Origin: a virus
DNA length: 45,455 nucleotides
IMG/VR virus record: IMGVR_UViG_3300048586_000914
Coordinates: 1-45,455 of that record
Direction: 5' to 3' (one strand)
The notes under the pieces were generated by a model. It was not told the DNA's origin and searched no databases. It saw nothing but the letters and a program-made list of their open reading frames with translations. This document shows, one piece after another, positions 4,173-45,455 of the stretch. Within the stretch, counting starts at the first letter, position 1; every line of letters begins with the position of its first letter. The translations under genes and the position numbers were made by a program.

Positions 4173-4663
4173 GACAGCAGACCCATCAGCGTTTGGAAGC
4201 CGAAAATGGCCTTGGTGTCGGCATACTTTTCCGACTTGATCAGGTCCGTGATCATGTCCGTCTCGGGGCAATCCTCGTGAAACGCCCGCCAGTCGCCAAG
4301 GTAGATGGTTTGGGACTCGCACCCGGCCATCATGGCGTCCATCATGCGAACGTCAGGGTGCGACAGGAACCGGTATTCAAGGTTCACGTCGAGGCACAAG
4401 AGACGGTCGAACGCTTCGACGGCGCGGTAATAGTCGGCGTTCATGTAGAGCGCCTTGTCGGGCGAGGGCACGTCACCGACGACTTCCGTTTCCTCGAAAT
4501 CGTGCAACAGGAAACCCCGCTGGACATTGCGCGGCGCACCCGTCGCCCGCAGGACGTGCGTGCCGATCACCATGTGTTCAAGGATCGAGTAATGCCGCGA
4601 GGTCCATCCGTTGAACCGGCAGTTGCGCGAGGCGGCGATGATCCGGTTAGGCGTCAGAAGCAT
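4169..4663 (-). CDS. HD-domain phosphohydrolase (YfbR/nucleotidase-like)
   Basis: A 164-aa protein with an HD superfamily signature: His in SILEHMVIG (about residue 30), the HD doublet in LLHDFEE (about residues 53-54) and a downstream Asp. The HDFEE motif and the size match phage YfbR-like 5'-deoxynucleotidases, which hydrolyse dNMPs and would complement the dNMP kinase at 12055. Nucleotide-pool tuning is thus a reasonable role. The ATG at 4663 overlaps the end of the helicase by 10 bases, and the longer frame beginning at 4852 is shadow sequence. Function is assigned from the motif, not from a confirmed substrate. Confidence 0.75.
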   Translation of the reverse strand: MLLTPNRIIAASRNCRFNGWTSRHYSILEHMVIGTHVLRATGAPRNVQRGFLLHDFEETEVVGDVPSPDKALYMNADYYRAVEAFDRLLCLDVNLEYRFLSHPDVRMMDAMMAGCESQTIYLGDWRAFHEDCPETDMITDLIKSEKYADTKAIFGFQTLMGLLS

Positions 4664-28201: not shown

Positions 28202-28743
28202 TATCTGAAACCGATCATCAGCGTGTTGTTGGTTTTGCGCCGCCCGGTAATCGGGTCAGCCTCGCGTCCGAGTTCCGCGAGATAGTATTCGCGCCAGTCG
28301 GTCAGTTCCTTGACGGACATTTTGGTGATCGACCGCGACTTGATGGTGTAGGACTCAACGTCCTGTTCGGCGCGGCCCGAGAGGATCGACTCGATCTTGT
28401 CCACCATCAGGCGGGCGTGCGAACGCCGGTCGGCGTCATTCGAGAAACAGGCGACCGACATCGTGCGCAGGACGCGGGACTCGTCGTCGGCCAAGCGGAT
28501 GACCACGAGGTCGGCGGTGTTCCGACCGTGGCGCATGTCCTGGGTGACGGTGCCCGAGGCGGTGAATGTCCAGACGCCATCGACCGACGCCCCGGCGATT
28601 TCGCGGGTCGTGCCGCCCGAGGCGAAAACGTATTTGAGGCTGAACAAGCTGGCGTCATATTCGTCGGGGATCGTCCACGCGACGAAATGGCCGATCACGA
28701 TGCTGACCGGTTCGCCTTCAATCGGTTCAAAAGGATCAGCCAT
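28201..28743 (-). CDS. gpW-like head connector protein with N-terminal extension
   Basis: A 180-aa protein between terminase and portal, the lambda W position. The C-terminal 65 residues fit the gpW pattern (DVESYTIKSRSITKMSVKELTDWREYYLAEL). The N-terminal 110 residues form an extra beta-rich domain (VSIVIGHFVAWTIPDEYD, VWTFTASGTVTQDM), which gpW (68 aa) lacks. The connector stabilises packaged DNA before FII and the tail attach. The start at 28743 is chosen because the frame above it is shadow sequence, and it overlaps the terminase end. Confidence 0.65.
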   Translation of the reverse strand: MADPFEPIEGEPVSIVIGHFVAWTIPDEYDASLFSLKYVFASGGTTREIAGASVDGVWTFTASGTVTQDMRHGRNTADLVVIRLADDESRVLRTMSVACFSNDADRRSHARLMVDKIESILSGRAEQDVESYTIKSRSITKMSVKELTDWREYYLAELGREADPITGRRKTNNTLMIGFR

Positions 28744-30556
28744 TTTTCCACCCGTTGACCCAATCGGTGCCCTTGCGCGGTGCCGGTTTCGCGGGCTTGG
28801 CCTTGGGCATGACCTTTTCGAGTTCACGCTTGGCGTATTCACGCATGGATGCGCGCCGTTGTGCGTTTACATCGACCGACAGCATTTCAAACGCCGCAGT
28901 AGCATAGACCCGGTTATCGAATGGTTCATTGCGCGGACGGATTTTGTGCCAAACCAGTTTCTTGAAGCCCTTGACAAAGGTCGTGCGCAATTCCTCTGCG
29001 GTCAGGCCCCGGAAATAGTCATCGCCATAGCTGGCCGGAAAGGCGCAATATCCCGCCTCGTCTGGACCTGCCGCGAGGCGCGCGACGACCAATTCCTTGA
29101 TCGTGTCCACCCCGAGCGGGAAAACCTGGGTGCCGTCGAGGTTGTTTTTCGATGGCTTGCCGACCATCGGCTTGCCGGTGCCGCCGATACCCTTGATCGG
29201 GACGACGCGGGACATCGACCGGCAGAATTTATAGACCGATTGGGTATAGTGACCGCCCGAGTCCATGCACGTCATCCGGGGCGAGATTTCCCCGAACAGA
29301 GGGTGCATGAACGACTGGTTCAGGTAGGTGCGCAGGGCAGCCCACGGTTCCGGCGTCGAGAGGTCGCCATAGATCGTGTGATATTCAATCGACCATGTGC
29401 GATGGTCGTTGCCCCACCCGAGGGTTTCAATCTCGAAACGGTCGTCCTGAACGTCCACGCCTCGGGTCAGGATGGTCACGGCCTCGGGCACCGGGGTCGC
29501 GTAGTCCTCGCGCTGCGCCAGCAGATCGGACCATTCGGTGCGCTTGCCCGCGTCCTGCCACACCTCGCCCAAGAACGTGTTGACCCACGTTTTCATCAAC
29601 TCGGGGTCGCCCTTGGCGTCGAGGAAGTCGCGCACGCCATCGGCCAGAGGCGCGAACCGACTGTAAAGCTGCGACAGGTGATAGGACAGGTTGCCGTTGA
29701 ATGGCTTTTGCGCGACCCAATGACCGGCGCGCACCGCCTCGATCCGCATCAGGTCGTCCCAATGCTCACCGCAATGCTCGCACTCGTAAACTGCCGTCTC
29801 GGGGTCGTTGTCGGTCCATTTGACTTGCGACCATTTCAAGACCTGCAACGCGCCGCACGCGGGGCAGGGGCACCACCTCTGCCGCATGTCGCCGCGCTCA
29901 TATTCGACCATGATCCGGCTGGTGTTCGCGTTCCCCGGCGTCGAGACGAACACCAGCACGCGGTTCCAGTAGGTCGTGGTCCGCTTGACGGCCAGGTTGA
30001 TCGGGTCGCCTTCCGTCCCGGCGCTGCGCTCAAACCGGTCCACCTCGTCGGCCAGCAGGACGCGGACGGGTCGGGACGCCAGACCTGTCGGCGCGTTCGC
30101 CCCCACGAGCGACAGCACGCCACCGGGGAATTTCTTGCTGCGGATCGTGTTGCCGCTGTCCCGCGACTTGGCGTCCTTGACCAGATTGCGCAGGACCGGC
30201 GTGTCCCGCAGCATCGGCGCGAGCCGTTCCTTGCTGAACATTTCCGACGACTCGATGGTCGGACTGACGTGCAGGATGGGGCAGGGGTCGCGGTGCATGA
30301 AATACCCGACCACGTTTTCGACAAAGGACGACTTGCCGACCTGCGCCGATGTCATCAGCGTGACGCGGCGCACCCCCGGCTTGCCGATCATGTCCATCGG
30401 TTCCCGCAGGTATTCCACCATGTCGGTGCGCCACCGACCGGGCGATGCGGACGACTCTGCGGACAGACGGCGGTATTCGTCAGACCATTCGGAAACGGTC
30501 TGATCTGGTGGCGGTGCAAGAACCGAAAGAACGGCCCTGATCAGCCGTTCGGACAT
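28736..30556 (-). CDS. terminase large subunit (lambda gpA-like)
   Basis: A 606-aa lambda gpA-type terminase. The ATPase domain opens with MTSAQVGKSSFVENVVGY (Walker A-like, QVGKS) and has ILHVSPTIESS, a Walker B in VRVLLADEVDRF, and FVSTPG as coupling motif. A zinc finger follows (CPCPACGALQ, then CEHCGEHWDD). The nuclease domain starts at TRGVDVQDDRFEIE, with acidic residues in MDSGGH and a late D. The family makes staggered cuts at cos, so this phage probably has cohesive ends. The start overlaps the o-spanin gene by 16 bases. Confidence 0.94.
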   Translation of the reverse strand: MSERLIRAVLSVLAPPPDQTVSEWSDEYRRLSAESSASPGRWRTDMVEYLREPMDMIGKPGVRRVTLMTSAQVGKSSFVENVVGYFMHRDPCPILHVSPTIESSEMFSKERLAPMLRDTPVLRNLVKDAKSRDSGNTIRSKKFPGGVLSLVGANAPTGLASRPVRVLLADEVDRFERSAGTEGDPINLAVKRTTTYWNRVLVFVSTPGNANTSRIMVEYERGDMRQRWCPCPACGALQVLKWSQVKWTDNDPETAVYECEHCGEHWDDLMRIEAVRAGHWVAQKPFNGNLSYHLSQLYSRFAPLADGVRDFLDAKGDPELMKTWVNTFLGEVWQDAGKRTEWSDLLAQREDYATPVPEAVTILTRGVDVQDDRFEIETLGWGNDHRTWSIEYHTIYGDLSTPEPWAALRTYLNQSFMHPLFGEISPRMTCMDSGGHYTQSVYKFCRSMSRVVPIKGIGGTGKPMVGKPSKNNLDGTQVFPLGVDTIKELVVARLAAGPDEAGYCAFPASYGDDYFRGLTAEELRTTFVKGFKKLVWHKIRPRNEPFDNRVYATAAFEMLSVDVNAQRRASMREYAKRELEKVMPKAKPAKPAPRKGTDWVNGWKNG

Positions 30557-31784: not shown

Positions 31785-32093
31785 TTATTTGTCCTCGTCA
31801 TCGACCCCGAGGCGCTTGCGCAGAAATGCCGACATGAATTTCTCGTTGGCGAATAGCGCGGTCGCAGCGTCGAGAAAGATCAGACCGAACGCCATCACGC
31901 CAACAGCGGCAAGAGCCTCACCCAATCCAAGATAAAGAGCGACATCGGACGACAGGCCAAACCCGAGTGTGGCAGACGCGGCAGTTTTGCCGACGCGGCT
32001 GACAATGCTTTCCGCCTTGGGCGTCCGAAAGAAGAACCAGACCGACATGCCCGCAATGACGGCCCAATACTCCGGTGATTTATTGTCCATCAT
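31785..32093 (-). CDS. holin candidate
   Basis: A 102-aa membrane protein with two to three hydrophobic segments (WAVIAGMSVWFFF, ASATLGFGLSSDVALYLGL, LAAVGVMAFGLIFLDAATALF) and a charged C-terminus (RKRLGVDDEDK). It lies between terS and the endolysin and resembles alphaproteobacterial phage holins. Several starts cluster here (TTG 32102, ATG 32099, 32093, 32090). AAGG lies nine bases before 32093, and the closely spaced starts recall dual-start holin/antiholin genes. The assignment rests on topology and position. Confidence 0.7.
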   Translation of the reverse strand: MMDNKSPEYWAVIAGMSVWFFFRTPKAESIVSRVGKTAASATLGFGLSSDVALYLGLGEALAAVGVMAFGLIFLDAATALFANEKFMSAFLRKRLGVDDEDK

Positions 32094-32607
32094 CGTCATC
32101 AACCTTGTCCCGCCAATCGTCGGCCAATTCGGTCAAGGCATCGTGGACACCCTGTTTGAGTTCGGTCGTCACCACGTTCAGATCGGTCTGACGAGCGATG
32201 ATAGGTGCCAGCTTGGTCGGCAGTTGCAGCAAGCGCGTGCGGACCCGCATCAGTATGTCTTGCCACGCGGTTTCGACCGACGCGGCGTCCAGCAATTCGC
32301 CTTCCGCAACGCGGTTCTCGCGCTCAACCTTTTCGGCCTGCGCCGTCTTGAGGCGGGTTTCGGCGGTCATCCCCTGACCGTCACCGCCGTCGAGACGTGG
32401 CCGACCGACACGCTTGTTGCCACGCACCTCGATCAGCCATTTGCCGAACGCCCTGGCGGGATAGGACTTGTCAGGGTTGCGAGGTGGCGGGTTGTCTTGC
32501 TTGTCCCAAAGGATTAACGACTGGACACTGACACCGGCCAGGACCGCAGCCGCGTCCTGCGCCATGTCGAAGTCGCCGCCGATCACCTCGATACTTGCCC
32601 GTGCCAT
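32080..32607 (-). CDS. terminase small subunit (Nu1-like)
   Basis: A 175-aa Nu1/DUF1441-like small terminase. The N-terminus is a winged-HTH (FDMAQDAAAVLAGVSVQSLILWDKQDNPP, ARAFGKWLIEVRG), and residues 80-150 form the helical oligomerisation region (TRLKTAQAEKVERENRVAEGELL, AWQDILMRVRTRLLQLPTKLAP). It binds cosB and recruits the large subunit. In lambda-like phages the binding sites lie just upstream, which here is the repeat region from 32650 upward. It is the first gene of the late operon, has GAGGG before the ATG, and overlaps the holin-like start. Confidence 0.88.
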   Translation of the reverse strand: MARASIEVIGGDFDMAQDAAAVLAGVSVQSLILWDKQDNPPPRNPDKSYPARAFGKWLIEVRGNKRVGRPRLDGGDGQGMTAETRLKTAQAEKVERENRVAEGELLDAASVETAWQDILMRVRTRLLQLPTKLAPIIARQTDLNVVTTELKQGVHDALTELADDWRDKVDDDDGQ

Positions 32608-32765: not shown

Positions 32766-32840
32766 ATTCCGGCCGATTTGGCTGAAAAAACCTCAAAATT
32801 TTTGTAGCTAGAAATCAAACGAGGTCGCGCGTTACCCCCG

Positions 32841-33219
32841 GCGCAATAATGTTGCACAGGACCCGTGATTCGCGCAAGATTCTTGCGTGCAACAATCGTT
32901 CGCCGCACGGTATGAGTCGCGCAATAATCGTTCGCGCAAGAATGTTGCGCACGATAGTTGCGTATGAACGCCGTCCAGCGCACCAATGTTGCGCGCAAGA
33001 TCATGTCGAGTCGGGGTATGAGTCGCGCAACAATCCTGCGCGCACGATAATTACCCGACCACGCAATAATCATGCGCGCACGATAGTTGCGCGGGATGAC
33101 CGGCAGACGACATGATCGGTCGCGCACGATAGTTGCGCCCCGTGAGCCTCGGGCGCACGATAGTTGCGCGCAAGAATGTTGCTCCTAAACGCAACTATCG
33201 TGCGTCAAAATAGTAGCGC
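32841..33219. repeat. cluster 1 of a 17-bp interrupted palindrome, GCGCA-N7-TGCGC
   Basis: About 17-18 units of the form GCGCA-N7-TGCGC, where N7 fits [A/C]NA[A/T][T/A]N[T/G]. Starts lie near 32841, 32872, 32887, 32903, 32919, 32934, 32947, 32978, 32993, 33025, 33040, 33061, 33076, 33122, 33153, 33168, 33189 and 33203. Most successive starts are 15-16 bp apart or a multiple of that, so neighbours overlap in TGCGCGCA. Spacers come in reverse-complement pairs (CGATAGT and ACTATCG). Four units are identical (GCGCACGATAGTTGCG). Arms are degenerate in some units, often on one side only. This looks like arrayed binding sites for a dimeric DNA-binding protein. Confidence 0.85.
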
Positions 33220-33272
33220 GACTCGTGGTCATGCGGGTCACGTTTCGCACCTTGATTCGCCCTTGGCGCGGG

Positions 33273-33349
33273 TCGAGGGTCGAGGGTCGAGGGTCGAGGG
33301 TCGAGGGTCGAGGGTCGAGGGTCGAGGGTCGAGGGTCGAGGGTCGAGGG
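33273..33349. repeat. 7-bp tandem repeat TCGAGGG, 11 perfect copies
   Basis: Eleven exact copies of TCGAGGG run without interruption, and related copies reappear at 33790-33830 beyond the next array. Each unit supplies a GGG run separated by TCGA, so the plus strand matches the general G-quadruplex pattern (four GGG tracts with 4-base loops) many times over. The unit is not a multiple of three and no gene is expected. Confidence 0.95.
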
Positions 33350-33350
33350 T

Positions 33351-33416
33351 CGCACCTGGTGGCGCACCTCGCACCTGGTGACGGGTCGCACCTGGTGGCG
33401 CACCTCGCACCTGGTG
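33351..33416. repeat. four copies of CGCACCTGGTG
   Basis: CGCACCTGGTG begins at 33351, 33370, 33387 and 33406, that is, at 19, 17 and 19-bp steps. The block GGCGCACCT precedes the second and fourth copies. It links the 7-bp array to the 11/12-bp array and probably arose by the same slippage or unequal recombination. Confidence 0.9.
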
Positions 33417-33420
33417 GCGC

Positions 33421-33762
33421 AGGCGAGGCGCAGGCGAGGCGCAGGGACGGGCGCAGGCGAGGCGCAGGGACGGGCGCAGGGACGGGCGCTGGGACGGGCG
33501 CAGGCGAGGCGCTGGCGAGGCGCAGGCGAGGCGCAGGGACGGGCGCAGGCGAGGCGCAGGGACGGGCGCAGGGACGGGCGCAGGGACGGGCGCAGGCGAG
33601 GCGCAGGCGAGGCGCAGGACGTGGCGCAGGCGAGGCGCAGGCGAGGCGCAGGCGAGGCGCAGGCGAGGCGCAGGGACGGGCGCAGGCGAGGCGCAGGCGA
33701 GGCGCAGGGACGGGCGCAGGCGAGGCGCAGGGACGGGCGCAGGCGAGGCGCAGGCGAGGCGC
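33421..33762. repeat. 342-bp array of 30 units of two types (11 and 12 bp)
   Basis: The stretch parses completely into 30 units: type A, AGGCGAGGCGC (11 bp, 18 units), and type B, AGGGACGGGCGC (12 bp, 12 units); 18x11 plus 12x12 is exactly 342. The order is AABABBBAAABABBBAABAAAABAABABAA. Single variants occur at unit 7 (TGGGAC), unit 9 (TGGCGAG) and unit 18 (AGGACGTGGCGC). The strand is strongly G-rich. There are no unique spacers, so it is not a CRISPR. Its variable order suggests a fast-changing minisatellite. Confidence 0.95.
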
Positions 33763-33796
33763 AAAGCGAAACCCGCCACGGGTTAGCGTGGCGGGT
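33763..33796 (-). terminator. intrinsic terminator of the small-gene operon
   Basis: A perfect 10-bp stem (ACCCGCCACG at 33771-33780 with CGTGGCGGGT at 33787-33796) with a 6-base loop is followed on the minus strand by TTTCGCTTT. It lies 36 bases past the last small ORF and directly before the repeat array, so leftward transcription should stop before entering the repeats. Confidence 0.8.
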
Positions 33797-33831: not shown

Positions 33832-33930
33832 TTAGAACATCAAGCCGATTGCCACACCTAGCGCCATGCCGCGCGCTGTCGGGTATCGCATCAGGAACAG
33901 AGCCGCGCCAATGGCGAGTCCGAGTCTCAT
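33832..33930 (-). CDS. 32-aa hydrophobic peptide
   Basis: A very short ORF whose ATG overlaps the stop of the 93-aa gene before it (ATGA). The peptide is mostly hydrophobic (LGLAIGAALFLM, then GMALGVAIGLMF) with two or three arginines and could span the membrane once or twice. It is the last cistron before the terminator. Stop-start coupling and composition support it, but its size makes it tentative. Confidence 0.45.
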   Translation of the reverse strand: MRLGLAIGAALFLMRYPTARGMALGVAIGLMF

Positions 33931-34208
33931 GCTATCGCACCTCGCCGGATTTGCAGCGCATCAGAGGGCGTGCGCTTGATGACGCGCGGGTCATATCCAA
34001 TCCGCGCCAATTCCGTCCCAAGGTCGCGCCATTCGTCAGGCGTGGCGGGTCGGGTCGATTGGATGACGTGTTGAGGGTCGCACGATCCGTGTTGACCAAT
34101 GGTCTGATAACACGCGCACGAATAGGGGTCATTGGTTCCGGGTTGATCAATCAACACCGCCACGACATCGCCTTGCGGATAGACCCGCATCAAAACCCGG
34201 TCAGACAT
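33927..34208 (-). CDS. hypothetical protein
   Basis: A 93-aa protein in a leftward operon of small unknown genes. It starts with a strand SDRVLMRVYPQGDVVAVLID, has a cysteine pair (SCACYQ) plus another Cys in HGSCDPQHV, and ends in a helical DEWRDLGTELARIGYD and a basic tail. The start at 34208 is preferred because it overlaps its upstream neighbour by 8 bases while the longer frame is shadow sequence. No family recognised. Confidence 0.55.
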   Translation of the reverse strand: MSDRVLMRVYPQGDVVAVLIDQPGTNDPYSCACYQTIGQHGSCDPQHVIQSTRPATPDEWRDLGTELARIGYDPRVIKRTPSDALQIRRGAIA

Positions 34209-34488
34209 TTGCAATTGCCTCTCTCTTTGCATCGTCGCGGGATTTGGCGCGAACATATGCGACTCCATCGTGGCCGAAACCTTTGACCCATACTGCCCAA
34301 ACCGGCCCAAGGTGACTCGGCGGTAATCCCCAATACGCGCCACCAGAGTCATATTCGTAGGCGGGACCGGCGACAGCCAATTCCGCAAGGGTCACGTTTT
34401 CCGGGTCAAGCATCAGACGATCAGACACGCGACCCATTGGCGCACCATATCTGCAATTCACTTTCGGGAACGGATTGAAACGCGCCAT
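34201..34488 (-). CDS. hypothetical protein
   Basis: A 95-aa protein of unknown function. It has an N-terminal ARFNPFPKVNCRYGAPMGR with a leucine-rich helix (NVTLAELAVAG) and a compact YDSGGAYWGLP to WAVWVKGF segment, ending in a charged helix (RAKSRDDAKREAIANV). It adjoins its upstream neighbour by one base at 34488 and overlaps the downstream start. Nothing points to a particular function. Confidence 0.55.
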   Translation of the reverse strand: MARFNPFPKVNCRYGAPMGRVSDRLMLDPENVTLAELAVAGPAYEYDSGGAYWGLPPSHLGPVWAVWVKGFGHDGVAYVRAKSRDDAKREAIANV

Positions 34489-34712
34489 CAGACCGACTCC
34501 TTGCGATATTCGACAGCATCAAGGCGATTTGAGGACTCGAGACGGAATGCAACGCATTTGCGCTCGATTCCGCCCTCAAATCCCATTGCGTGCGCCACAA
34601 GGGCAAATGCTGACCACGCGCCACGCCTCGTGGTGAAATGGCGCGTAACAGGTTCAGCAATGCACAAGGCGGCGTTGTATTTCCAGACCGTGACGGAATA
34701 GCGGGTTTTCAT
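34488..34712 (-). CDS. hypothetical protein
   Basis: A 74-aa basic protein starting MKTRYSVTVWKYN, with a helix AWSAFALVAHAMGF and an end LESSNRLDAVEYRKESV. The pattern of two short strands, a helix and a further strand resembles small nucleic-acid-binding or dimeric phage proteins, but I recognise no family. Its ATG lies 2 bases downstream of the stop of the preceding gene. Confidence 0.55.
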   Translation of the reverse strand: MKTRYSVTVWKYNAALCIAEPVTRHFTTRRGAWSAFALVAHAMGFEGGIERKCVAFRLESSNRLDAVEYRKESV

Positions 34713-34714
34713 TG

Positions 34715-34969
34715 TCACACCCAAACCGGATTGAAGCGATAGCAATTGAGGGTCACGCACTTGGAATTGTGGCGCGGGCGATTGCTCGCAAACCAATTGA
34801 ACCGACCCGCGCGCGTGGTGCATTCCGGGTCACGATATAGCGCCACGTCGAACCGACCTGCGAAACCGTATTTGATGGACTCGGGGTCCGTGGTAGGTTC
34901 TTTGCGCGCATAGAGCGTCAGCAATGGCGCGGGCGCAGGATCGTCAAAGCGATACAGAGCAAAGGTCAT
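34715..34969 (-). CDS. hypothetical protein
   Basis: An 84-aa protein, TFALYRFDDPAPAPLLTLYARKE at the start and aromatic, Asn- and Arg-rich later (FNWFASNRPRHNSKC, NCYRFNPVW). The Trp/Tyr-rich, basic character is shared with its operon neighbours and may indicate nucleic-acid binding. Its ATG overlaps the stop of the preceding cistron (ATGA). Function unknown. Confidence 0.55.
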   Translation of the reverse strand: MTFALYRFDDPAPAPLLTLYARKEPTTDPESIKYGFAGRFDVALYRDPECTTRAGRFNWFASNRPRHNSKCVTLNCYRFNPVWV

Positions 34970-35187
34970 TGCACGTCCTCGCCCTTGGCAATGGTGCGTG
35001 CGAGGTATGCGTGGAAATACCTTGCGCGCGACCCGTTAGCATTCTTTGGCGCGCGATACTTGACCGAGTCGGCAGCCTGTATCACGCATTCGACCTGATA
35101 GGAGTTGAGGGCGTGGAAATCACGATCCACGGGAATGCAAAAGGTCGAAACCATCGCCCGTGCTTCCCAATATGTGAGGCGCGCCAT
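34966..35187 (-). CDS. hypothetical protein
   Basis: A 73-aa protein with an N-terminal ARLTYWEARAMVSTF, a middle DFHALNSYQVECVIQAADSVKY and a basic region (NANGSRARYFHAYLARTIAKG). The ATG at 35187 comes 2 bases after the upstream stop; a TTG six bases earlier is less likely. The spacing suggests reinitiation of translation. Function unknown. Confidence 0.5.
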   Translation of the reverse strand: MARLTYWEARAMVSTFCIPVDRDFHALNSYQVECVIQAADSVKYRAPKNANGSRARYFHAYLARTIAKGEDVQ

Positions 35188-35189
35188 GA

Positions 35190-35582
35190 TCAATAGACCA
35201 CGAAAAGCGCGCGGTCATCTTTGGCGGCAAACACCTTGCAAGGTGCGCCTCGCGGGTCGCAATTAAATTCGACCCGGTAAAAGTCGCGCCAATACTCGCC
35301 ATAGCATTTCGCCATTCCCGCAAGAAACCGCGCGCGGTTCTTTTCCATGATCCGTTCCGCGCGCGCCTCGTCCTTATCAGTCCATTCCGCCATGACGCGG
35401 CGCAATTTCGGGTCGTAACGTTCCACGCCATTGCAGCGCATCATATTGATGCGGTCCAGTTGGAAAGCGGCAAGGCGCAATTCCTGCGCGTTGCCAAAGA
35501 TATTCGCCACGGGCGACTCGGTAATGTCAGCCGCACGGAACATGGATTCAAGCAAAGCGTGGCGCGTGATGTGTTCAGACAT
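35190..35582 (-). CDS. hypothetical protein
   Basis: A 130-aa protein, the largest of this operon. The first 90 residues are helical (HALLESMFRAADI, AAFQLDRINMMR, KDEARAERIMEKNRARFLAGM), and the last 40 look like a beta hairpin (FYRVEFNCDPRGAPCKVFAAKDDRALFVV). Two Cys in the hairpin could form a bridge or bind metal. It overlaps the preceding gene by 8 bases. No family recognised. Confidence 0.55.
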   Translation of the reverse strand: MSEHITRHALLESMFRAADITESPVANIFGNAQELRLAAFQLDRINMMRCNGVERYDPKLRRVMAEWTDKDEARAERIMEKNRARFLAGMAKCYGEYWRDFYRVEFNCDPRGAPCKVFAAKDDRALFVVY

Positions 35583-35898
35583 TGGAAGACTCCACCATAT
35601 CGGAAATCGACGGGAACATATTGAGCGGGAAGCAACGGGAACGGCACCGCGACCCGGAATAGCGGGTCACGACAAGAATCCCCGAAAAGGTCACGCCATT
35701 GGAAGAGTCGCCCGACTCTTCGCACTCGAGTCCCGACATCGCTTCCCGCAACGTGATACCGCGCGACCCGCGACCACCATTGACGCACCGCGCCTGATAG
35801 CGGGTCACGTCAAACGCCACGTCCCGAGTCCATTCCTCGCCAATCGGCCACCACAAAGCGCCGTGCGCTGTCGCGTGGATCGTGAGTTGAGTTGTCAT
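35575..35898 (-). CDS. hypothetical protein, first gene of the small-gene operon
   Basis: A 107-aa beta-rich protein (TQLTIHATAHGALWWPIGEEWTRDVAFDVTRYQARC, GITLREAM, VTFSGILVVTRYSG) with a basic C-terminal part. AAGGTGA precedes the ATG by about six bases. It is the first cistron of a seven- to eight-gene leftward operon bounded by palindrome cluster 2 upstream and a terminator plus repeats downstream. The flanking AT-rich 35920-35970 region may hold its promoter. Function unknown; accessory anti-host or regulatory genes are often found in such sets. Confidence 0.55.
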   Translation of the reverse strand: MTTQLTIHATAHGALWWPIGEEWTRDVAFDVTRYQARCVNGGRGSRGITLREAMSGLECEESGDSSNGVTFSGILVVTRYSGSRCRSRCFPLNMFPSISDMVESSNV

Positions 35899-36341
35899 CT
35901 GTCGTCACCTTTTCGCGTGATGTGTGACCACAAATTACAAAATAACGGAAGGTCAGTAAAGGACTCAAAGTAACGTCAAAACTACTAGCGCGCAACAATC
36001 TTGCGCAAGCTGGCAACTATCTTGCGCGCAAGAATAGGCCAGGAACACGCAACAATCTTGCGAGGTCGGGTAATTACCTTGCGCGCACGATTATTCCAGG
36101 TTCAGGTAAGATTGTTGCGCGCACGATTATTGCGCAGGTCGGCAATTTTATGACCGACAGTAAGTTGCGGGACTCACCCCGAGTCGCGCACGATTGTTGC
36201 GCGCAACATTGTGAGGCGAATCGGCCAGGCAGCGCAACAATCGTGCGCGCACGAAAATGACCGATTCGCGCAAGAATGTTGCGCGCCAGGGCTGATCAAA
36301 CTAACCCCTTGGGCACACCGGAAAAAACCCGGAAAAAACCG
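35899..36341. other. 443-bp non-coding region with palindrome cluster 2
   Basis: The region contains no gene. The right side of the small-gene operon (35899-35973) is AT-rich with possible promoter elements on the minus strand. From 35974 to 36284 it is filled by the 17-bp palindromes, and 36305-36341 holds two copies of CGGAAAAAACC. Confidence 0.7.
35974..36284. repeat. cluster 2 of the GCGCA-N7-TGCGC palindrome
   Basis: About 14 units with the same arms and N7 spacer rule as cluster 1, starting near 35974 (degenerate), 35990, 36011, 36026, 36047, 36068, 36083, 36104, 36119, 36140 (degenerate), 36186, 36201, 36232, 36247 and 36268. Best units are GCGCA-ACAATCT-TGCGC (35990), GCGCA-CGATTAT-TGCGC (36119), GCGCA-CGATTGT-TGCGC (36186), GCGCA-ACAATCG-TGCGC (36232) and GCGCA-AGAATGT-TGCGC (36268). 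The two clusters bracket the small-gene operon about 2.8 kb apart. Confidence 0.85.
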
Positions 36342-36385
36342 CTACATGACGGCGGAAAAAACCCCGGTAGCAGCGGAAAAAACCG
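36319..36385. repeat. four copies of CGGAAAAAACC
   Basis: CGG-A6-CC begins at 36319, 36330, 36353 and 36374. The first two lie downstream of the 158-aa gene and the last two inside its 3' end, where they encode repeated VFSA. On the minus strand they are T6 tracts between CGG/CCG arms, so they could aid termination or DNA bending. Confidence 0.75.
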
Positions 36386-36818
36386 TCGCGGCCTCGTGCA
36401 AGGGCAGGCGCTTGAGCGCCAAGAGGATCGCGTTGCGTTCGATGGCGATGCGACCGTTGAGGTATTCGATCATGTCACGCGACCGCGATGTCTCGATCCG
36501 GCGTTCCAACTCACTGATCGCCAGCTTGCGCAACAGGATATAATCGTTCGCGTCCTTGGCGGTCCTGATGGTCACGAGGTCGGTCAGACCCGGCACCAGA
36601 AAGTAGGTGTCCGCTATCCGCTTGACCGCCGACTGGTGGCGCGACGAGGTGGCGGTGAATGTGTCGGCGCTCACATACAGGACATCACCGTCCCACATGG
36701 CGACGACATCATCATACGAGGTCAGCACGCCGTCCTTGAAGCGCAGGGTGTTGCGACCGTTGGCGGCTGATGATGCTCTGCGCGTGCAGAAAAGAGCGAC
36801 AATATCGTGGTTGTTCAT
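36342..36818 (-). CDS. hypothetical protein
   Basis: A 158-aa protein of unknown function. N-terminal half: NHDIVALFCTRR, LRFKDGVLTSYDDVVAMWDGDVLYVSAD, ATSSRHQSAVKRIAD, a beta-rich region. C-terminal half: two helices (KDANDYILLRKLAISELERRIE and EYLNGRIAIERNAILLALKRLP), perhaps a helical hairpin. It lies 51 bases downstream of the gpZ-like gene and shares its transcription direction. The 3' end has two of the four CGGAAAAAACC repeats. It may belong to the early control region, but no DNA-binding motif is clear. Confidence 0.6.
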   Translation of the reverse strand: MNNHDIVALFCTRRASSAANGRNTLRFKDGVLTSYDDVVAMWDGDVLYVSADTFTATSSRHQSAVKRIADTYFLVPGLTDLVTIRTAKDANDYILLRKLAISELERRIETSRSRDMIEYLNGRIAIERNAILLALKRLPLHEAATVFSAATGVFSAVM

Positions 36819-44500: not shown

Positions 44501-45075
44501 GCCGCAATCCCCCACTGGTCCGGTCTGATCCCGGCACGCTTCAACAACACCTCGCGCTGGTCATCCGAGTATTGCCACACCCCGACGCCAATCTCGCCGT
44601 CCGTCCCGGCGACGACAGGTTCCGACCCGATCAGGCGATAGACCCGCAGCATCGGCATGGCGAACACGCCGACGAAATGGGTCACGTCATGCTTGCGCAT
44701 CAGTTCCCCGCCGCCGAACATCAGGGCCGACGCGATGCGATGGCTGGACCCCGGCGCGAGACAGAACCGCGTGCATTCCCACATCGCCGGGTCGCGGAAC
44801 GGATGGTTCCCGACGAGGTGCATGAAATGCTCGTTGATCATCGTGCGACCGGTCGTCGGCAGGAACCGCGCCGACCCGCCGTGCAGCCCGTCAGGACTGC
44901 GCCAGATCACATAGATGGGGTCGAGGTCGTCATACTGGTCGCGCTCGCGGCCCTCGTCATCGACCGTCACCGGCCACCCGAGGCGGTCGCGGAATTGCTT
45001 GGTGCGGTCGCGGAACATCGAGTCCCGCAACTCGGGATGCTGGTCGAGGTCGTGCCCGTGCAGGTAGAGCAACAT
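44497..45075 (-). CDS. LuxI-family acyl-homoserine-lactone synthase
   Basis: A 192-aa autoinducer synthase of the LuxI family, which makes N-acyl-homoserine lactones from S-adenosylmethionine and acyl-ACP. Family invariants are present in order and spacing: R24, F28, W34, D46, D49, R70, F84, E100 and R103 (in the stretches RDRTKQFRDRLGWPV, YDDLDPIYVIW, RFLPTTGRTM, WECTRFC). The C-terminal half (FVGVFAMPMLRVYRLIG, GVGVWQY) is the usual acyl-chain pocket part. No luxR gene exists in the window. The gene is coupled to fic (ATGA) and abuts the gene before it (TGATG). It is near the prophage end, a site for cargo genes, and may give the lysogen a signal or help the phage sense related hosts. Confidence 0.93.
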   Translation of the reverse strand: MLLYLHGHDLDQHPELRDSMFRDRTKQFRDRLGWPVTVDDEGRERDQYDDLDPIYVIWRSPDGLHGGSARFLPTTGRTMINEHFMHLVGNHPFRDPAMWECTRFCLAPGSSHRIASALMFGGGELMRKHDVTHFVGVFAMPMLRVYRLIGSEPVVAGTDGEIGVGVWQYSDDQREVLLKRAGIRPDQWGIAA

Positions 45076-45455
45076 CAGTTTGCCCCCTTGCGCCAGTTGC
45101 CGCCGCGACCCTTGCCCAAGAGGTGCAGGGTGCCTTTCTTGATCGACGCGCTGATGTTGTTGGGATGAATGCCGAGCGCCTTGGCAGCCGCCGCCCGCGA
45201 CGGATAGACCACGCCGTCAACCTCGGTTTCCTTGTATTTGCCCCGACCACCGTTCGCCCCCGGTTCGCCCCGTTTTGCGGTCGGAATCGGGCGGATTCGG
45301 TCAGGTTTCGTTTTTGGAAGTTGCTGGATTTCCAGAGACTTAGCGGTTTCCCGCTGCCCTCCGAAGGCAGAGGTCGCACGTTCGAATCGTGCTGGGTGCG
45401 CCAACTTCCCCTCATTGATCTCCCAGTTGTGACGGCTTGTCGCGTGACGGCGCAT
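45075..45455 (-). CDS. NUMOD1-like DNA-binding peptide, start uncertain, spans attachment site
   Basis: Only the C-terminal 55 or so residues look real: a NUMOD1-like helix-turn-helix (DGVVYPSRAAAAKALGIHPN, then NISASIKKGTLHLLGKG) with a basic tail. The frame stays open to the window end, but residues 17-35 (LAHPARFERATSAFGG) are an antisense translation of the tRNA-Arg fragment. The true start is probably internal, for example a GTG at 45212 with GAGG eight bases upstream (45 aa), or it lies in flanking DNA and differs between integrated and excised forms. The gene abuts luxI. NUMOD1 domains usually accompany homing nucleases, but no nuclease domain is present. Confidence 0.45.
   Translation of the reverse strand: MRRHATSRHNWEINEGKLAHPARFERATSAFGGQRETAKSLEIQQLPKTKPDRIRPIPTAKRGEPGANGGRGKYKETEVDGVVYPSRAAAAKALGIHPNNISASIKKGTLHLLGKGRGGNWRKGAN
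45354..45403 (+). other. 3' half of tRNA-Arg(CCG), predicted attachment site core (attR)
   Basis: The segment folds as the 3' part of a tRNA: anticodon arm CTGCC-CTCCGAA-GGCAG (anticodon CCG), variable loop AGGTC, T arm GCACG-TTCGAAT-CGTGC, acceptor strand TGGGTGC, discriminator G and an encoded CCA. The D arm and 5' acceptor strand are missing upstream. Phages often integrate into tRNA 3' ends and leave such a duplicate. The intact gene should lie just left of base 1, beyond the integrase. Sequence right of 45403 would then be host DNA. Confidence 0.85.

Follow-up and report, generated by a model that had tools for sequence, protein, structure and literature searches.

Why should a phage carry the same short palindrome many times over, packed into two clusters that bracket an operon of small genes, and which protein would bind them? 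This question is raised by the viral DNA analysed here (the window, a stretch of 45,455 nt), in which one of the two clusters begins next to a putative cos site and the other lies 2.8 kb away. An earlier note on this DNA had proposed that both clusters are bound by one protein, which could loop, isolate or silence the segment between them. Here we compare the clusters with each other, with host genomes and with other phages, and weigh the explanations for them.

Two clusters of one palindromic unit

The second cluster reported in the earlier note is real. Its unit has the same consensus as that of cluster 1, CGCAA-NAWTN-TTGCG (15 bp), and a matrix built solely from the 14 strong cluster 1 units finds, at a threshold of at least 12 bits, 14 units in cluster 1, eight in cluster 2 and none in the rest of the 45,455 bp (Table 1). 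At a threshold of at least 10 bits this matrix detects nine units in cluster 2, whereas 500 dinucleotide shuffles of these 331 bp gave a mean of 0.07 and at most 1. Both clusters are also recovered by a matrix derived from the array of a related phage, L017 (14 and 8 units, plus 1 elsewhere). The figure of about 14 units given previously for cluster 2 is reached by adding degenerate units that fall on a 15/21-bp ladder to the eight or nine strong ones; several of the degenerate units have low scores, among them those at 36069 (2.8 bits), 36141 (−4.8 bits) and 36248 (1.0 bits). The related flank words described for the two clusters are present (CGTCAAAATAGTAGCGCG at ~33203 and CGTCAAAACTACTAGCGCG at ~35974) but they are not units, with scores of −0.1 and −10 bits.

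Table 1. Positions of the clusters and neighbouring features in the window
Feature	Position	Strand	Remarks
terL, lambda gpA type	28736..30556	-	PF05876, PF20454, PHROG 15
terS, small terminase	32080..32607	-	First gene of structural operon; PHROG 57
Putative cosN, GGTAACGCGCGACC	32823..32836	-	Block conserved in relatives; contig edges at first G
Virion left end	32836		Starts here, reading towards terS
Cluster 1, strong units (14)	32842..33204	.	Starts 32842, 32873, 32888, 32920, 32935, 32948, 32979, 33026, 33062, 33077, 33123, 33154, 33169, 33190
Cluster 1, degenerate units			Starts 32994, 33041
Putative cosQ, GGGTCCT	32858..32864	-	28 bp left of cosN
Small-gene operon	33927..35898	-	~7 overlapping small ORFs, between the clusters
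Cluster 2 (35974..36284), strong units	35991..36283	.	Starts 35991, 36012, 36048, 36105, 36120, 36187, 36233, 36269
Cluster 2, degenerate units			Starts 36027, 36069, 36084, 36155, 36202, 36248
Four CGGAAAAAACC repeats, A-rich	36316..36388	.	Beside cluster 2

Cluster 1 stands at the head of the packaging/late (structural) operon and cluster 2 at the head of the small-gene operon, whose genes head away from cluster 2; the ORFs of this operon that were scanned gave no family match. Across 20 arrays, the spacing between neighbouring units peaks at 13, 15, 21, 28 and 31–32 bp, with 36 and 46–47 bp also present, and pair distances are best fit by periods of ~5.2 and ~15.3 bp, which amount to half-turn steps. 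Degenerate phage units carry an alternative arm (GGTAA at 36069 and 36105, TTACC at 33041), which is also the one used in the host sites described below. An array of RNA hairpins was considered and rejected, since 10 of 16 distinct units do not maintain pair 5–11 and the stem has 0 compensatory cells, which argues that the units are sites in duplex DNA.

Several other repeats lie nearby. L006 (~4225–4310) and L017 (~248–300) share the A-rich CGGAAAAAACC / CGGWTTTTTTCCG repeats, which are conserved in the interval from the 158-aa gene to the small-gene operon. They occur in phages with and without palindrome arrays and may be a further operator or part of an origin. Long low-complexity tandem repeats at 33266–33770 (GGGTCGA; GGCGCAGGCGA-like) adjoin cluster 1, and different tandem repeats are found left of cosN in L013 and L022. 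At the far end of the window, the start of the ORF at 45075–45455 resembles what we take to be translation of a host tRNA region, fused to a phage DNA-binding ORF; together with an integrase-like ORF at 1–1530, this suggests that the window ends are prophage ends.

A host counterpart at the phaB promoter

In the Gemmobacter family, which we take to be Rhodobacteraceae, 43 of 198 genomes contain perfect single units. Of 30 loci with such a site, 19 lie beside phaA/phaB (10), a MaoC-type phaJ-like gene (5), an mcl-like lyase (2) or pntA (2), as named by NCBIfam, with phaB, phaA (thiolase) and pntA above the cut-off and the phaJ-like and mcl-like genes below it. The singletons in L055 and L068 are coding coincidences within an apparent AsnC-type gene, its family assigned by eye. 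We then applied a matrix built from 22 window units only to the 200 bp upstream of phaB in 58 genomes (58 of 60 matches). Sites scoring at least 12 bits were found in 41 of the 58 regions, against a mean of 0.43 and a maximum of 2 in 40 shuffles and 0 of 30 in a control set taken upstream of phaR. The phage-trained matrix thus recovers the 15-bp site [CG]G[CT]AA-N5-TT[AG]C[CG] of the phaB operator, most of the sites lying 57 to 84 bp upstream of the start.

In the host logo, the site is followed ~17 bp past its right arm by a TAACA-like −10 element that is overlapped by a second, related element, GTAAC-N3-RTTAC. This second element stands at +31/32 in 33 of the 41 regions and scores at least 7 in 26 of them (null mean 0.39, maximum 2). 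We found the paired pattern in 43 of 384 genomes and its reversed control in none; of 30 such loci that were fetched, 29 lie at phaB and the other at a MaoC-type enoyl-CoA hydratase. The presumed phaB promoter of Rhodobacteraceae coincides in part with a conserved paired operator (phaA–phaB intergenic regions of 58 genomes, L283–L340). Dense arrays, defined as two strong units within 32 bp, were found in none of 394 host genomes.

Several observations count against the operator model set out below. One is that 17 of the 58 phaB promoters have no site, and another that 17 of the 41 sites continue into longer hairpins, in 12 cases by at least 5 bp, which could be phaA terminators; the second element is kept in 17 of the 24 host sites that have no longer hairpin. 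In the order to which an Enhydrobacter MAG with an array-bearing prophage belongs, the site was found at none of 18 oriented phaB loci, and the binder may therefore differ there.

Pairs of units 31/32 bp apart are also common in the phage arrays, where no −10 element follows the units. The layout TTGCGN-N16-18-TANNNT is seen in only 2 of 107 phage sense units (background 2.7%), and the units are accordingly not copies of the host promoter, a difference that also counts against the model. It suggests that the arrays are upstream operator arrays and not repeated promoters. From the related phages and from the site itself, we infer that the window phage has a host among the Rhodobacteraceae.

Candidates for the binding protein

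As both clusters carry the same site, it is probable, as proposed earlier, that one protein acts on both. Judged from the match between this site and a host operator, that protein probably belongs to the host. A phage-encoded cognate regulator was sought by BLAST of the ORFs of array-bearing records against those of the array-less G200, and no protein outside the structural set was common to the former and absent from the latter, a comparison that fast-evolving regulators could escape. This favours, weakly, a host binder. Two known regulators were rejected. The PhaR box core, YGCRNYGCR (PMC12542648; PMC10888616), is unlike the unit; in the same family of genomes, the boxes upstream of phaR read TGCACTGCA and similar, and these are the regions in which the phage matrix found no site. 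The RamB (ScfR) boxes, TGACAAACCTTACA / TGACAATACTGACT with an 18-bp spacer (PMC10370305, Table 3), are alike in the 18-bp spacing and not in sequence when compared by eye. The literature searched names no regulator for the phaB site.

Arrays upstream of terminase genes in other phages

A strict two-unit pattern was found in eight viral contigs and two genome contigs, and a relaxed pattern in 27 viral contigs. The array adjoins terminase genes in 18 of these 27 (17 phages, L030 being the same as L032), with large terminases of PHROG type 2 (L202, L203, L204, L206, L209, L213, L214, L215, L217, L219, L030, L031, and L032, typed by its identity with L030), type 9 (L201, L207, L036) or type 15 (L033, and L017, taken as this type from its similarity to the window TerL). 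It lies on the 5′ side of the terminase genes in 17 of the 18, the exception being L206, where it is just 3′ of terL. In 10 of 13 assigned cases, in most of which the terS start was set by position and not by model, the nearest unit is 131–275 bp upstream of the start of terS or the first gene; the others are L032 (433 bp), L215 (1022 bp) and L204 (a weak unit within the gene).

The nine other contigs comprise L205/L216/L218, a single phage type without assignment, L034, L210, L211, with a unit pair ~0.7 kb from a primosomal/O-like gene, L035, whose array falls within a replication-initiator gene, and L208 and L212, in which the units lie within long ORFs, perhaps by chance. The L035 array (L179:4987–5102) consists of five CCGCAAC-NNNN-TTGCG-like units and can be likened to the iterons of lambda, which sit inside gene O. 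Nearly all array-bearing phage contigs other than the window have a single cluster; L031 has a second, weak unit pair 3.8 kb from its first cluster. A blastn search of the arrays against named phages and plasmids returned nothing, eight regions of named phages that were scanned held only scattered single matches and no array, and the literature searched for sequence strings and for cos/array and decoy terms gave no earlier description.

A model for the arrays

Taken together, these observations make it on balance probable that both clusters are multi-site operators for the host transcription factor that controls phaB in Rhodobacteraceae through paired 15-bp sites. The same factor probably also controls the phaJ-like gene, mcl and pntA, and thus PHB, ethylmalonyl-CoA and NADPH metabolism. 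The phage would have amplified the host operator into arrays in which half-turn steps (15, 21, 31, 36 and 46 bp) place dimers on two opposite faces of the helix, a spacing that could allow the protein to coat the array cooperatively. Bound in this way, the host protein would regulate transcription of the phage, setting the activity of the packaging/structural and small-gene operons according to carbon status, while replicating phage DNA would titrate it. Looping or isolation of the segment between the clusters, as suggested in the earlier note, finds no support so far; a loop is possible but not required, and the phages with one cluster indicate that an array can work alone.

Alternatively, the arrays may be decoys, in which ~22 strong sites per incoming genome sequester the host regulator and derepress acetyl-CoA/PHB genes to the benefit of the phage. 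This would fit the number of phage sites, as against one or two at the host operator, the lack of a promoter layout and the position at the right end beside cosN, the virion end that would enter first, as the right end of lambda DNA does. However, a sponge would have no need to lie upstream of terminase genes, which is where 17 of the 18 terminase-linked contigs have the array. We consider a pure decoy unlikely and, because of this recurrent place, favour operon control combined with titration.

Relation to cos and DNA packaging

The presence of GGGTCCT 28 bp to the left of GGTAACGCGCGACC (30 bp in lambda) indicates a lambda-type cosQ–cosN arrangement. A contig edge coincides exactly with the first G of GGTAACGCGCGACC in 37 of the 90 viral contigs that contain it together with a downstream CTAG, and in a few more it is one base off. 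In L025, what we recognise as Illumina adapter sequence is joined to GGGAACGCGCGACC at the cosN cut point. The contig edges and this adapter junction indicate, indirectly, that the virion DNA ends at cosN. From the edges at GGTAACGCGCGACC in viral contigs L084–L162, the cos cut can be located for a large group of phages by means of assemblies only. Given this placement of cosQ and cosN, cluster 1 begins between them and runs into the virion right end, away from terS, and cosB would fall on the opposite side of cosN.

The closest syntenic relative, L006 (TerL 71% identical), has the same order of tail gene, 158-aa gene, A-rich repeats, small genes, cos and terS, and has an array at neither the cluster 1 nor the cluster 2 place. 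L017 (TerL 63%) has nine units at the cluster 1 place and none at the cluster 2 place, L016 has one unit within its 46 bp left of cosN, and in the prophage of the Enhydrobacter MAG (L038) four units lie to the left of GGGTCC and GGGTAACGCGC. In a comparison of 46 cosN entries that extend at least 60 bp leftwards, some contigs being represented twice, the array is confined to the window and L017. The array is thus an accessory of cos whose presence does not track terS similarity. Searches for related loci with terS and with the 158-aa gene found nothing.

A pure cosB role, which the earlier note had found hard to reconcile with two clusters, is therefore wrong: cluster 1 is on the cosQ side of cosN, outside the interval from cosN to terS, and the array is missing from close relatives that share this cos. 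That the unit is not a terminase site is also implied by its occurrence beside terminases of three TerL families. Some packaging assistance by the arrays is possible, for instance if a host DNA-bending or DNA-wrapping protein on an array beside cos or pac aided the terminase, in the way that IHF helps lambda terminase. Units that begin between cosQ and cosN, that touch cosQ in L033 and that lie beside terS in phages of three TerL types would suit such a role, which is nevertheless quite improbable as the main explanation, given the scarcity of arrays among the 46 cosN entries, their absence from L006, with its more similar terS, and the distance of 3.2 kb between cluster 2 and cos.

It is very unlikely that the units are replication origin iterons. 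The five units within the initiator gene of L035 and the A-rich CGGAAAAAACC repeats that adjoin cluster 2 are consistent with an origin, but the window yielded no such initiator, L006 and L017 keep the A-rich repeats without an adjoining array, and the usual place of the arrays is at terminase genes. An array bound by TerS, as an extended cosB or pac site, can be dismissed despite adjoining cosN and terS: a lambda-type cosB would lie across cosN from it, the unit recurs beside terminases of different families, the array is missing in relatives with the same cosN, and there is a second cluster far from cos.

Significance and comparison with known systems

If the arrays are operators for the host regulator of phaB, the late development or packaging of these phages would be tied to the carbon-storage metabolism of the host through a shared DNA site. 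This would explain why the same palindrome is found beside the terminase genes of unrelated phages, and would provide a handle on the regulator of phaB itself. We tentatively extend this to a wider proposal, in which unrelated alphaproteobacterial phages independently amplified the operator of a host regulator of the acetyl-CoA/PHB pathway into phased arrays at the head of their packaging/late genes; the carbon-storage state of the host, together with titration of the regulator by replicating phage DNA, would gate late expression or packaging, and host PHB genes would be deregulated.

The cos region of the window resembles that of lambda, where a GGGTCCT cosQ lies ~28–30 bp from cosN and is followed by terS and a gpA-type TerL. 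It differs in that the window array starts inside the cosQ–cosN interval and runs away from terS, whereas the 84 bp leading up to the right end of lambda contain no such array. With the phaB operator of Rhodobacteraceae the arrays share the 15-bp site, the arm variants CGCAA and GGTAA and, apparently, the 31-bp pairing; however, the host operator has one or two sites that overlap the promoter and no dense array. Lrp/AsnC-type arrays, such as that at Escherichia coli ilvIH, consist of phased 15-bp palindromes with an AT-rich centre at multiple sites upstream of a promoter, and are similar in geometry only, as the sequence differs. Mycobacteriophage L5 likewise carries many copies of one operator, the stoperators, but these are scattered and bound by the phage's own repressor, whereas those of the window are packed in two clusters and match a host operator.
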